A stretch of DNA of 64,000 nucleotides from Blastococcus sp. TML/M2B (GTDB taxonomy: Bacteria > Actinomycetota > Actinomycetes > Mycobacteriales > Geodermatophilaceae): assembly GCF_016612865.1 (NCBI RefSeq), contig NZ_JAENZZ010000001.1, positions 186,001-250,000 on the forward strand. The letters run 5' to 3'. A program made the translations under genes and the position numbers. The notes beneath the pieces are model-generated. The model saw nothing but the letters and a program-made list of their open reading frames with translations, ran no database searches and was not told the DNA's origin. Positions 52,310-57,107 of the stretch are shown in pieces (position 1 is the first letter of the stretch; each line of letters opens with the position of its first letter).

Positions 52310-52986
52310 GCCGCCCGCACTCCTTCTTCGAGAACGTGGCCGCCGAGGTCCCCGACCCGGCGACCTGCACCCACCTCACCGGCGCCGACCACGTCGCCTC
52401 GCTGACCGCCGCGCTCGGCTCGCTGCACGGTCAGCTCGACGTCCTCGACGACTGGGGGCGGCTGCTCGCCGGCGTGCTGTGCGGGGAGGGCCGCGGCCGG
52501 CTGCTGGCCGCCGGCAACGGGGGCAGCGCCGCCCAGGCGCAGCACCTCACCGCCGAGCTGGTCGGGCGGTACCGGGCCGACCGGCCGCCCTTCTCGGCGA
52601 TCTGCCTGACCGCGGAGACCTCGTCGCTGACCGCGATCGCCAACGACTACCCGGCCGACGAGCTCTTCGCCCGCCAGGTGGAGGCGCACGGCCGGCCCGG
52701 CGACGTGCTGGTGCTGCTCTCGACGTCGGGCCGCTCGCCGAACGCCGTCGCGGCCGCCCGCCGCGCCCGCGCGTGCGGCATCACGACCCTGGCCATGACC
52801 GGTCCGGGCCCGAACCCCCTGGCCGCCGCGGCCGACGACGCGATCTGCATCGACAGCCCGTGGACGGCGACGGTGCAGGAGTGCCACCTCGTCGCGCTGC
52901 ACCTGGTCTGCGCCGCCTTCGACGCGGCCGTGCTGGCCGAGCCCTCCCGCGTGCCGGCGGGCCCGGCGCTGGGCCCGGTCCGGTGA
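52306..52986 (+). CDS. gmhA: Sedoheptulose-7-phosphate isomerase GmhA
   Basis: This 226-residue SIS-domain protein has the GmhA blocks GRGRLLAAGNGGSAAQAQHL, TAELVGRYRADRPPFSAICL, TAIANDYPADELFARQVEAH, GDVLVLLSTSGRSPNAVAAA and the active-site end QECHLVALHLVCAAFDAAV. It converts sedoheptulose 7-phosphate to D-glycero-D-manno-heptose 7-phosphate, the first step of heptose activation. ATG 52306 overlaps the GT4 stop and its own stop overlaps HldE. Confidence 0.94.
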   Translation: MSRPHSFFENVAAEVPDPATCTHLTGADHVASLTAALGSLHGQLDVLDDWGRLLAGVLCGEGRGRLLAAGNGGSAAQAQHLTAELVGRYRADRPPFSAICLTAETSSLTAIANDYPADELFARQVEAHGRPGDVLVLLSTSGRSPNAVAAARRARACGITTLAMTGPGPNPLAAAADDAICIDSPWTATVQECHLVALHLVCAAFDAAVLAEPSRVPAGPALGPVR

Positions 52987-54362
52987 GCGGGCGCACGGGC
53001 TCGGCCGGCCGGCCGCTGGTCGTCGTCGGCGACGCGCTGCTCGACGTCGACCTGGTCGGCAGCGCCTCGCGGCTCACCCCCGACGCGCCGGTGCCGGTGG
53101 TCGAGGACGTCGAGCGCCGCGAGCGCCCCGGCGGGGCCGCGTTGGCCGCGGTGATCGCCGCGGCCGCGACCTCCCGCGAGGTGGTGCTGGTCGCCCCGCT
53201 GGACTCCGACGAGGGCGCCGGCCGGCTGCGGGCGCTGCTCGACGGGCGGGTGCGGCTGATCGCGATCCCGGCCGGCGGGGGCACCGCGGTCAAGCAGCGC
53301 ATCCGGGTGGGTGACCACTCCGTCGCCCGGCTCGACAGCGGCGCCCCCGTGGCCGAGCTGGGCGCGCTGCCGGCCGAGGCCGCCGACGCCATCCGCGACG
53401 CCGCCGCCGTGCTCCTCGCCGACTACGGCCGGGGGACGACGGCCGCCGCCGACGTGCGCGCCGCGCTGGCCGCCGCCCGCGGGCCGGTCGTGTGGGACCC
53501 GCACCCGCGCGGCGCCGACCCGGTGCGCGGCGTCCGGCTGGTCACACCCAACGGCGCCGAGGCCGCCCGCGTCGTGCCCGACGTGCCCGGCGAGGGGCTG
53601 GCCGCCGTCGGCGCGCGGGCCGAGGTGCTGATCGGGCGCTGGGGGGTCGGGGCGGTCGCGGTGACCATGGGTGCCCGCGGGGCGCTGCTCTCCTACGGCC
53701 CGGGGGCGCCGATGGTCGTGCCCGCGGTGCCGGTGACCGGCGGCGACCCCTGCGGCGCCGGCGACTCGTTCGCTGCGGCGGCCGCGCTGGCGCTCGCCGA
53801 CGGCGCCGTCACCGGGGAGGCCGTCGCGTCGGCCGTCGCGTTCGCCTCCGCGTTCGTGGGCCGCGGCGGCGCCACGGCGTGGGACCGGGAGACGCCCGAC
53901 GTCGTCGTCGCCCGACCTGGAGCCGAGGGCGTCATCGCGCGGGTGCGGGCGGCCGGCGGCACCGTCGTCGCCACGGGGGGCTGCTTCGACCTGCTGCACC
54001 CCGGGCACGTCGCCACGCTGCGCGCCGCGCGCGGGCTGGGCGACTGCCTGGTGGTCTGCATCAACTCCGACGACTCCGTCCGCCGGCTCAAGGGCCCGTC
54101 GCGACCGCTCACCAGCGCGCCCGACCGGGCCCGCGTGCTCGAGGCGCTGGAGTTCGTCGACGCCGTCGTCGTGTTCGAGGAGGACACCCCCTCGGCCGTG
54201 CTCGAGCGGCTGCGCCCGGACGTGTGGGCCAAGGGCGGCGACTACGCCGGCGCCGACCTGCCCGAGGCGGCGGTGCTGCGCAGCTGGGGCGGGCAGGCCG
54301 TCGTCCTGCCCTACCTCGACGGGCACTCGACCACCGCCCTGGTCGAGCGCTCCCGCGTCTGA
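52983..54362 (+). CDS. hldE: Bifunctional heptose kinase/adenylyltransferase HldE
   Basis: This 459-residue protein has the two HldE domains. The PfkB kinase half (residues 1-about 310) holds VVVGDALLDVDLVGSASRL, RPGGAALAAVIAAAA, TPNGAEAARVV and the signature GGDPCGAGDSFAAAAALALA. The nucleotidyltransferase half (from about 320) holds TGGCFDLLHPGHVATLRAA, with the HPGH site, and VVCINSDDSVRRLKGPSRPL. It phosphorylates heptose 7-phosphate at C1 and later adds AMP, giving ADP-heptose with the GmhB step in between. No HldD epimerase is seen nearby. Confidence 0.95.
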   Translation: MSGRTGSAGRPLVVVGDALLDVDLVGSASRLTPDAPVPVVEDVERRERPGGAALAAVIAAAATSREVVLVAPLDSDEGAGRLRALLDGRVRLIAIPAGGGTAVKQRIRVGDHSVARLDSGAPVAELGALPAEAADAIRDAAAVLLADYGRGTTAAADVRAALAAARGPVVWDPHPRGADPVRGVRLVTPNGAEAARVVPDVPGEGLAAVGARAEVLIGRWGVGAVAVTMGARGALLSYGPGAPMVVPAVPVTGGDPCGAGDSFAAAAALALADGAVTGEAVASAVAFASAFVGRGGATAWDRETPDVVVARPGAEGVIARVRAAGGTVVATGGCFDLLHPGHVATLRAARGLGDCLVVCINSDDSVRRLKGPSRPLTSAPDRARVLEALEFVDAVVVFEEDTPSAVLERLRPDVWAKGGDYAGADLPEAAVLRSWGGQAVVLPYLDGHSTTALVERSRV

Positions 54363-55354
54363 TGGACCACCCCGCCCCAGGGACTTCCTGTACAGAAAGT
54401 CCCGACCCCGTGGGACTTTCTGTACAGAAAGTCCCGACGGCGGTGGTGCTGCGGCCGCTCGGGCTGGGGGACCTGCTCACCGCGGTGCCCGCGATCCGCG
54501 CCGTTCGGGCCGCGGTCCCCGGGCACCGGCTGGTCCTGGCGACGACGGAGGCGCTGCGCCCGCTCGCCGGGCTGATCGACGCCGTCGACGAGGTGCTGCC
54601 CGCCCGCGAGCTCGAGCCGCTGGACTGGACCGGCCCACCGCCCGTGCTCGCCGTCGACCTGCACGGCAAGGGCCCCGCCTCGCACGTCGTCGTCGCCGCC
54701 CTGCACCCGGAGCGGCTGCTGACCTTCGACAGCCCCGGCTACCCCGGGCCGACGTGGTACCCCGACGAGCACGAGGTCCGGCGCTGGTGCCGGCTGGTCG
54801 CCGAGGGGCTGGGCGTCGCGGCCGACCCCGACGCGCTCGACCTCGCCGTCCCCCGGGTGCCGCGGGCGGTGCGGGACGTCGCGGTCGTGCACCCCGGCGC
54901 CGCCTACCCGAGCCGGCGCTGGCCGGCCGACCGGTTCGCGGCCGTCGCCCGCCATCTGGCGGCCGCGGGGCACGACGTGCGGATCACCGGCGGCCCCGAC
55001 GAGGTCGAGCTGGCCCGCGCGGTCGCCGAGGCCGCCGGGCTCGGCCCGGACGCCGTGCTGGCCGGGCGGACGACGTCGCTGGAGCTCGCCGCCGTCGTCG
55101 CCGCGGCGCGGGTCGTGGTCTGCGGCGACACCGGGGTGGCGCACCTCGCGACCGCCTACCGCCGTCCCTCGGTGGTGCTGTTCGGCCCGGTGTCACCCGC
55201 GCTGTGGGGCCCGCCGGACCGCTCGCAGCACGTGGTGCTCTGGCACGGCGGCGTCCACGGCGGCAGCGGCGACCCGTGGGGCAGCGAGCTCGACCCCGCG
55301 CTGGCGGAGATCACCGTCGACGAGGTGGTGAACGCCGTGCAGTCCCTCCCGTGA
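54362..55354 (+). CDS. GT9 heptosyltransferase-like enzyme with repeat-derived N-terminus
   Basis: This 330-residue GT9 protein has VVLRPLGLGDLLTAVPAIRA, PPPVLAVDLHGKGPASHVVV, VVHPGAAYPSRRWPADRFAA, VRITGGPDEVELARAVAEAA and VVVCGDTGVAHLATAYRRPS. Its stated ATG overlaps the HldE stop (TGATG), but the first 25 residues are encoded by two palindromic elements (54380-54435), reading GTSCTESP and GLSVQKVP. A GTG at about 54443, just before VLRPLG, is an alternative start. It is the last gene of the heptose operon and is followed by three further copies of the palindrome. Confidence 0.85.
   Translation: MDHPAPGTSCTESPDPVGLSVQKVPTAVVLRPLGLGDLLTAVPAIRAVRAAVPGHRLVLATTEALRPLAGLIDAVDEVLPARELEPLDWTGPPPVLAVDLHGKGPASHVVVAALHPERLLTFDSPGYPGPTWYPDEHEVRRWCRLVAEGLGVAADPDALDLAVPRVPRAVRDVAVVHPGAAYPSRRWPADRFAAVARHLAAAGHDVRITGGPDEVELARAVAEAAGLGPDAVLAGRTTSLELAAVVAAARVVVCGDTGVAHLATAYRRPSVVLFGPVSPALWGPPDRSQHVVLWHGGVHGGSGDPWGSELDPALAEITVDEVVNAVQSLP
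54380..54435. repeat. Two palindromic elements at the GT9 start
   Basis: The perfect 24-base palindrome made of GGGACTTTCTGT and its reverse complement lies at 54412-54435. A copy with one change lies at 54380-54403. They sit between HldE and the conserved start of the GT9 domain and are in frame with that gene. Three relatives lie downstream of the same gene. Confidence 0.88.
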
Positions 55355-55374
55355 GGACGTGGACTGCTCCCCAG

Positions 55375-55464
55375 GGGACTTTCGGTACCGAAAGTCCGCT
55401 CGTCCCCGGGACTTTCTGTACCGAAAGTCCGCGCTTGATCGGGACTTTCGGTACAGAAAGTCCC
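55375..55464. repeat. Three palindromic elements after the GT9 gene
   Basis: Copies at 55375-55397 (GGACTTTCGGT and its reverse complement, perfect), 55408-55430 (mixed halves) and 55441-55464 (mixed halves) share the GGGACTTTC-KGTACM-GAAAGTCC pattern with those at 54380-54435. They lie in the 109 bases between the convergent GT9 and VWA genes, where they may also act as a terminator. The last copy ends at the VWA stop codon. Confidence 0.88.
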
Positions 55465-57107
55465 TAGCCGCGCTGGCGGAGGGCGTCGAAGAGCACCGTC
55501 TGCAGGTCGTTCTCGTCGAGGGCGGAGTAGGCGTCACCGCCGGTCGCCTCGCCGATGGACTGCAGGGCGCTCAGGTCGGCGTCCGGGCCGAGGGCGATGC
55601 CGATGACCTTCACCGGGCGGCCGGGGTCGGCCTCGGAGGCGAGGGTCTGCAGCAGCCCGTCCAGGCCGATGCTGCCGTCGTCCTCGTCGGTGCCGTCGGT
55701 GATGATCACGACGGTGTTGACCGCGGTCGGGTCGTAGTCGACGCGGGCCTTGCGGACGGCGGCCAGCACCGTGTCGTAGAGCCCGGTGCCGCCGGGGGAG
55801 AGGCGGGTCGGGAACGAGTCCGCCTGCTCCTGGAGGATCTCCCGCTGCGTACGGCCGTCGATCTCGGTGTCGAGCACGCGGGTGGGCACCAGTTCCTGCC
55901 AGTCGGTGCCGCCGTCGAGCTCGCGGGCGAACACCCACAGGCCCAGCGCCGAGCGCCCCGGGATGAGCGCCAGCGCGCTCTTGGCGGCGTCGCGGGCCAG
56001 CGTGGCGCGGGTGCCGCCGCCGCCCACGTTCGCCTCCATCGACGCCGAGACGTCGACGACGGCCAGCAGCCGGGAGGGCGCGGCCAGCGCGGCCAGCCGG
56101 GAGAGCAGTGCCTGCACCTCGTCGGGGTCCAGCGGCACCTCCTCCGGGGCCTCCTCGCGGATGCCGCTCTCCTCACCGGCCGCGGGGGGTGCGGTGCCGT
56201 CGGCGTCCCGGAACCCGGCCTCGCCGGCGGCGGTCCGCGCGTCGGCCGAGGTCAGGACGGCGACGACGGAGTCGACGGCCCGGCTCTGGTCGCCGCTGGG
56301 CGAGCCGACCCGGACGACGGGGTAGTCGAGCACCGGCGAGCCGCCCTCGGGGTAGACCGCGGTGAGGGCGGAACCGGCGTCGGTCGCCCGCGCGGCGTAG
56401 ACCGCCTGCTCGGTGACGGGCACCAGCGGGGCGTCCGCGCTGCCCCCGGCGGCGGCGTCCAGGGCGCTGGAGGCGCCCCCGGCGCCGCGGTCGGCGGCCA
56501 GCACGGCCTGGACGACGGCGGTGTCGCCCGCGTCGGCGTCGCCGGCGGAGGTCATGAGCGCGGAGAGGGCGGCCAGCGCCTCGCCGCTGGAGGCGATGTC
56601 GGGCATGGCGACCGGCTGGTCGCCGGTGAGCGCCTCGGCCCACGTCGGCGGCGCGTCGGCCCAGCCCTGCGCGTCGACGACGGCGGTGCTGGTGCCGAGG
56701 ACGACCGGCGAGGTGGCCAGCGACGAGTCGGGGGAGAGCTCGGCGTCCCCGGCGCGGGGGAACCAGATCGAGGAGTCGGGCACCCAGACGTCGGGCAGCG
56801 CGTCGTCGTCCAGGGCGCTCAGGTCACCAGCGGTCTGCAGCGGGCTCTGGGCGGTCACGTCGGCGGTGACGCAGCCGTCGGCACCCAGCGCATCGGGATC
56901 GGAGAGGAGCCCGTCGACGAGGTCGGCGATCTCGGGGGTCACCGTGACGGCGACCGTGGAGCGCGTCGCGCAGCTCTCGTCGTCGCCCCCGGCCAGCCAC
57001 CACACGAGTCCGCCGGCGAGGAGGAGGACGACCACGGCCCCCGCGGCGGCGACCCACAGCGTGGGGAACGGGCGGCGGTTCTCGGTCGGGTCAGCGTGGC
57101 GGCCCAT
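55464..57107 (-). CDS. Substrate-binding plus VWA-domain membrane protein
   Basis: This 547-residue protein has an N-terminal helix (LWVAAAGAVVVLLLAGGLVW), then a domain of about 280 residues resembling type 2 periplasmic binding proteins (TVAVTVTPEIADLVDGLLSD; LPDVWVPDSSIWFPRAGDAE; VTEQAVYAARATDAG), and a C-terminal von Willebrand A domain with an intact MIDAS: DVSASMEANVGG, the later threonine in GGTGLYDTVLAAVRKAR, and IITDGTDEDDG. This binding-protein/VWA pairing occurs in actinobacteria, with unknown ligand. It is transcribed against the heptose operon and preceded by the epimerase gene. Confidence 0.85.
   Translation of the reverse strand: MGRHADPTENRRPFPTLWVAAAGAVVVLLLAGGLVWWLAGGDDESCATRSTVAVTVTPEIADLVDGLLSDPDALGADGCVTADVTAQSPLQTAGDLSALDDDALPDVWVPDSSIWFPRAGDAELSPDSSLATSPVVLGTSTAVVDAQGWADAPPTWAEALTGDQPVAMPDIASSGEALAALSALMTSAGDADAGDTAVVQAVLAADRGAGGASSALDAAAGGSADAPLVPVTEQAVYAARATDAGSALTAVYPEGGSPVLDYPVVRVGSPSGDQSRAVDSVVAVLTSADARTAAGEAGFRDADGTAPPAAGEESGIREEAPEEVPLDPDEVQALLSRLAALAAPSRLLAVVDVSASMEANVGGGGTRATLARDAAKSALALIPGRSALGLWVFARELDGGTDWQELVPTRVLDTEIDGRTQREILQEQADSFPTRLSPGGTGLYDTVLAAVRKARVDYDPTAVNTVVIITDGTDEDDGSIGLDGLLQTLASEADPGRPVKVIGIALGPDADLSALQSIGEATGGDAYSALDENDLQTVLFDALRQRG

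Follow-up and report, generated by a model that had tools for sequence, protein, structure and literature searches.

The 64,000-nucleotide stretch of Blastococcus sp. TML/M2B DNA analysed here (the window) carries five very similar palindromes around a single GT9 (PF01075) gene, which raises the question of whether these sequences brought the gene with them, form a purely local array, or belong to something more widespread. Our analysis indicates that they are probably copies of a REP-like family of about sixty members that occupies gene 3' ends, likely as hairpins behind stop codons, and that is predicted to multiply by means other than a RAYT transposase.

A search of the window with GGACTTTCNGTACNGAAAGTCC, allowing up to three mismatches, returns five matches that start at 54381, 54413, 55376, 55409 and 55442, and the same search of 100 dinucleotide shuffles of the window returns none (chance expectation 0). 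All five palindromes claimed to surround the GT9 gene are therefore present, between 54381 and 55463, as are the two that had been called perfect. We refer to 22 bp palindromes that match GGACTTTCNGTACNGAAAGTCC as the K family; none of the five is assigned a strand. The first (54381..54402, GGACTTCCTGTACAGAAAGTCC) has one arm mismatch; the second (54413..54434) and third (55376..55397) are perfect over 22 bp, with cores TGTACA and GGTACC, respectively; the fourth (55409..55430) and fifth (55442..55463) are perfect apart from their asymmetric cores, TGTACC and GGTACA, and the fifth is the exact reverse complement of the fourth. They make up two arrays, an upstream pair with a start-to-start spacing of 32 bp and a downstream triplet with spacings of 33 and 33 bp, and the spacers between copies are 10-11 bp long and unlike one another. 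The pair begins 18 nt past the stop codon (54360-54362) of a plus-strand gene with PfkB kinase and cytidylyltransferase-like domains (52983..54362), which we take to be HldE-like. The triplet begins 21 bp past the stop codon of the GT9 gene (55352-55354) and lies between the convergent 3' ends of that gene and a minus-strand gene (55464..57107), whose stop codon is directly abutted by the end of the fifth palindrome; the best von Willebrand A (VWA) match of the latter gene (E 0.0012) is under the Pfam cut-off.

The plus-strand GT9 gene can be read from an ATG at 54362 that overlaps the upstream stop codon (54362..55354), and a codon-usage gene caller chose an alternative start at 54443. When it is read from 54362, the frame is open through the upstream pair, as the original prediction had it, and the residues of the pair become an in-frame N-terminal extension that, if translated, would have the predicted sequence MDHPAPGTSCTESPDPVGLSVQKVPTAVV... 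The GT9 frame is open across this junction in 21 of 22 species, a property that is common anyway in such G+C-rich DNA. In 17/22 species the GT9 frame has a start (-3 or 0) that overlaps the stop codon of the upstream gene; among the species with a junction longer than 17 nt this holds for 12 of 17, where about one third would be expected by chance (relatedness uncorrected). An N-terminal extension of a predicted protein can be repeat-derived, which calls for caution.

The K family is dispersed over the 4.1-Mb genome of this strain (G000), in which we count 65 copies at up to three mismatches and none with a reversed control pattern; a pattern with a looser centre gives 70 matches, with 1 control match. 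One array is counted twice among the 65, since contigs C1, which contains the window, and C3 both carry it at an end, with the same flanks. This six-copy array, with near-identical flanks, is seen at L013:654-740 (the start of C1) and L030:2835-3021 (C3 near 7 kb), and the double is an overlap or duplication at assembly contig ends. In the sampled stretches and the window together, the copies make up 22 distinct arrays, the 23rd being the C1/C3 double; a further pair lies at C2:720488. The K palindromes flank many genes besides GT9. The suggestion of a mobile repeat family stands to the extent that this is a dispersed, repeated family, and the notion of a purely local array, with no copies elsewhere and the same five in all relatives, is contradicted by the genome-wide count. 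The usual period of K arrays is 33 bp, and 82 adjacent spacings fall into groups of 23-26 (n=12), 31-35 (n=63), 41-43 (n=4) and 54 bp (n=3), with none between the groups. The groups, exemplified by window positions 55376-55463, are about ten bases apart. Read outward, the outer flanks of K arrays are G-rich (about 42-60% G), such that the arrays lie between C-rich and G-rich stretches.

Where K arrays lie relative to genes was assessed for 90 arrays, with gene ends taken from our own codon-usage caller and not from annotation, in loci picked for holding repeats. Eighty-three of the 90 are between genes (40 tandem, 38 convergent and 5 divergent pairs), 3 are inside genes and 4 are unplaced. Seventy-eight arrays adjoin a gene 3' end: 71 of them begin 0-20 bp after the stop codon, 4 run into the gene end as called and 3 are 75-103 bp away; between tandem genes the array is nearer the 3' end in 35 of 40 cases. 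Convergent gaps hold 38 of the 83 intergenic arrays, compared with 6,177 of the 54,032 intergenic bp in the same loci, where the background gene pairs are 95 convergent, 320 tandem and 95 divergent (6,177, 27,803 and 20,052 bp, respectively; these lengths include the arrays themselves). K arrays are thus enriched between convergent genes. The three arrays inside long ORFs are in L033, L061 and L053: those at L033:2474-2529 and L061:2493-2547 lie in the linker of a two-unit ABC transporter at an orthologous place in two species, and the third (L053:2588-2609) is inside a chelatase/VWA protein.

We compared 22 congeners (G001-G022), 13 genomes of the same family and 24 of the same order. At up to one mismatch K is present in 7 of the 22 congeners and absent from the other 15 and from the 37 more distant genomes. 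When any core is allowed, the counts are 58 in G000, 54 in G022, 38 in G019, 18 in G001, 7 in G009, 4 in G004, 2 in G006 and 1 in G008, and 0 in 15 other genomes. Among the matches listed, the cores in G022 are mostly GGTGCA/TGCACC, with a few GGCGCC or TGCGCC, and those in G019 are mostly GGCGCC. Among the loci compared, at least 17 of the 22 arrays of our strain have an orthologous counterpart array in a relative, with 4 of those 17 links resting on one flank only. In these counterparts the palindromes are still recognisable, copy number and spacers differ, and the core is largely species-specific. G010 (L084; hldE/GT9 and slot c) has a sister palindrome, AGCTTTCGGTACCGAAAGCT, that shares the K centre and not its ends. 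On a tree of the 22 species built from the kinase/cytidylyltransferase gene, the palindrome family labels, assigned from copy counts (so that G006 with 2 and G008 with 1 are not labelled K; G004 is absent), need 9 changes compared with 12.4 for shuffled labels, and 1 of 200 shuffles is as low; this result is a clustering of palindrome families and not a mechanism.

Three other multicopy families share the 3'-end placement habit of K. The S family, GCTTTTCCGCGGAAAAGC, has 68 copies in G001, 62 in G009, 22 in G004, 14 in G018, 5 in G007 and 1 in G010, and 0 in all others of 60 genomes, G000 included; its arrays are 14 convergent, 13 tandem, 1 divergent and 2 unplaced, and 23 of 27 lie within 20 bp of a stop codon. 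The T family, GGCATAGNNNNCTATGCC, has 65 copies in G008, 63 in G016, 47 in G021 and 37 in G020, the low counts in other genomes being about at control level; 14 of its arrays are convergent and 13 tandem, and 23 of 27 are within 20 bp of a stop codon, 4 of them overlapping. The M family (GGGCC..TGGCCA..GGCCC) gives forward/reverse counts of 26-28 in G003, 25 in G013, 20-24 in G018, 15-16 in G019, 14 in G009 and 6-7 in G002; its arrays are 5 convergent, 11 tandem and 1 unplaced, with 14 of 16 within 20 bp of a stop codon (4 of them overlapping). T also reaches 42 copies in a genome of another genus (G029) and M 30-32 in one of another (G033); among the genomes searched, T and M, and not K and S, reach high copy numbers in further genera of the same family.

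These families replace one another at the same junctions in relatives. At the kinase-GT9 junction K is found in G000, G022 and G019, S or an S-like palindrome in G018 and G001, T in G008 and G020, and M in G013; the remaining species have other sequences there, or 8-14 nt only (G002, G003, G016, G017 and G021), and in G002, G003 and G017 the junction is empty (8 nt). At the GT9-VWA junction K is found in G000 and G022, S in G009 and G018, and T in G008 and G016, with others elsewhere. Slot c of L016 holds K in G000, G001, G004 and G019, K-like variants in G010 and G020, and M or M-like palindromes in G002, G003, G009, G013, G018 and G021; it has only 10-16 nt in G005, G014, G015, G016, G017 and G022, and there are four others. 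Folds with z below -2 occur in 10 of 17 filled slots AB, 12 of 19 CD and 8 of 16 c. Slots a and b are counter-examples, in which relatives mostly have no palindrome: z is below -2 in 1 of 8 species at slot a (G000 alone) and in 3 of 10 at slot b (G000, G001 and G022).

The arrays are also strong folders in silico. The triplet has a fold z of -7.93 against shuffles, and the upstream pair forms a single long hairpin in which the outer flanks are also paired (z -9.06). T doublets, spaced at 42 bp, covary in the manner of a single long hairpin: across 24 elements 96.1% of positions are Watson-Crick pairs compared with 92.6% when shuffled (0 of 1000 shuffles as good), and the core of a single half is not palindromic. 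Single K palindromes are extended by locus-specific complementary flanks (1.73 versus 0.75 contiguous pairs; 0 of 2000 shuffles). In multi-copy K arrays the complementarity of the outer flanks does not exceed that of shuffled partners, S flanks show no complementarity signal, and arm covariation in M is weak and not significant (74 of 1000 shuffles as good). On the sense strand we found no preference for G-U pairs over A-C mismatches (34 versus 32), which counts against an RNA reading, since selection on RNA pairing predicts more G-U. The K pairs comprise 25 direct and 19 inverted, the rest being ties or perfect palindromes; K is thus not a clean REPIN doublet, since it is direct as often as inverted. 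Two sub-threshold Rfam matches to mir-3199 at 54371-54444, on both strands, were set aside as look-alikes of the long hairpin only.

How do these repeats relate to known systems? According to PMC3733652, REPs elsewhere lie less than 20 bp from the 3' ends of convergent and unidirectional ORFs, and CGTC REPs are reported to have no dedicated transposase. The arrays resemble the GTAG/CGTC REPs as described there in being short palindromes in tens of copies, at convergent and unidirectional ORFs and less than 20 bp from 3' ends, in also lying inside ORFs, N-termini included, and in occurring as singletons, dimers and clusters. They differ in that K has no GTAG or fixed CGTC tag and consists of 22-bp near-perfect palindromes with a usual period of 33 bp, and in that K is actinobacterial, while the word "actinobacteria" is absent from the main text of PMC3733652. 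GTAG is found in the first 10 nt outside K arrays in 0 of 180 outer flanks, and CGTC in 10 of 180 compared with 5.8 when shuffled, which is no fixed tag; GACG shows a weak excess (20 of 180 versus 9.9) that may point to a remote link of K to CGTC-type REPs. REPIN doublets form hairpins (PMC3116915), and T resembles them in its inverted doublets with a fixed 42 bp and covarying arms, as the families here do in being species-level and persisting vertically. The difference from REPINs that have a RAYT is that K is direct about as often as inverted and that no Y1_Tnp domain (PF01797, RAYT-type) is found in any of 23 genomes at E<=0.001, with 5 of 14 control genomes positive; the REP-associated transposase contemplated by the original prediction was accordingly not found in these 23. 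Like Rickettsia palindromic elements, which are in-frame palindromes in proteins (as related in PMC3733652), the repeats can be read in frame, in the GT9 N-terminus, the ABC transporter linker and the chelatase/VWA protein, but unlike those elements K is mostly extragenic, behind stop codons. A literature search, judged from its search results, returned no published description of these repeats. The arrays are best read as REP/REPIN-like repeats without a RAYT and without a GTAG tag, among which T works like a REPIN, and not as members of a RAYT system.

If this reading is correct, the arrays likely act as hairpins at mRNA 3' ends. The RNA of an array would fold, just past the translated region, into one hairpin or several, and these would shield or mark the 3' ends of mRNAs from either strand and keep convergent transcription units apart. 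In E. coli, REPs near stop codons reportedly affect translation. The family is predicted to spread by machinery other than a RAYT; copying, by hairpin-doublet transposition or by gene conversion between slots, would keep the copies alike within a genome, and we propose that the core differs between species because of this copying. That we saw neither an exact empty site nor a target duplication weighs against such movement. Repeats within genes or at operon junctions would persist when the reading frame is kept.

Several features could also be expected if the arrays were bound by a sequence-specific protein (a nucleoid protein, a topoisomerase or a road-block factor between convergent genes, for instance) that recognises helically phased DNA palindromes as cooperative dimers, protein binding being an idea that the original prediction also raised: the dyads are near-perfect and their sequence conserved, the K spacings fall into the discrete groups given above, there is no RNA wobble bias, and the core differs between species in a concerted manner. 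We nevertheless consider this explanation unlikely. Unrelated palindromes occupy the same junctions in relatives, the preferred spacing differs from family to family (23 in S, 42 in T and 33 in K), and the T doublets covary as a long hairpin, with no palindromic core in either half taken singly. Moreover, when the distinct spacing values alone are considered, phasing is modest (resultant 0.51-0.64, 12 values), and neighbouring spacers proved 75% alike across 12 comparisons, so that the spacing groups may reflect tandem duplication and not helical phasing.

It is still less probable, in our estimation, that the arrays are bidirectional intrinsic terminators without a U-tract that arose for termination and were homogenised within each genome. 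They do resemble intrinsic or tandem hairpin terminators in placing a strongly folding hairpin, symmetric on the two strands, immediately after the stop codon, and in lying between convergent genes; they differ in the lack of a U-tract and in that an identical sequence is repeated. Four or more T in 8 were found in only 1 of 119 sense-side flanks, and a terminator scan of 54200-55700 gave 0. In addition, the upstream pair is at an operon-like junction with GT9 next and its start overlapping, where a terminator would be harmful, as it would be for the three K arrays inside long ORFs, and the hypothesis would not account for the presence of identical 22-mers in dozens of places.

The idea that the arrays are DNA-uptake-type signals accumulated through transformation, with incidental 3' hairpins, takes its appeal from the presence of one motif in high copy per genome and from its 3'-end position, both of which also characterise the uptake sequences of Neisseria and Haemophilus; we reject it as very improbable, because no lone half-site GGACTTTC occurs outside the arrays in 181,019 bp of sequence from this strain, against 1.3 expected. 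Least credible is the composite insertion of the original prediction, in which the palindromes would be the ends of a mobile unit that carried GT9: there are arrays on both sides of the gene (in the window sense only) and the same two places are occupied by arrays in G022, but GT9 and its upstream neighbour stand together in 22 of 22 species, with or without repeats, including those with an empty junction (G002, G003 and G017), which rules it out, and other arrays flank unrelated genes singly. Since the gene order is kept throughout, GT9 is resident at this locus and what varies is the repeats, and the apparent clustering around it is two separate 3'-end or junction arrays at neighbouring genes.

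The window palindromes are thus most reasonably viewed as members of the REP-like family at gene 3' ends. A broader proposal, which we regard as possible but somewhat doubtful, is that Blastococcus and neighbouring genera harbour a stop-codon-addressed palindrome system without a RAYT, in which copying machinery would place and homogenise palindromes 0-20 bp from stop codons, K, S, T and M would compete for slots, the hairpin would be kept while its sequence is exchanged, and repeats would be translated where they are in frame. REP-like repeats are usually credited to RAYTs, and here there are abundant families with the same 3'-end habit for which no Y1 transposase was found in the 23 genomes; in sister species, moreover, the same junction can hold one family in place of another. 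These findings make it testable what else multiplies such repeats, and whether it is the hairpin or its sequence that is kept by the cell.
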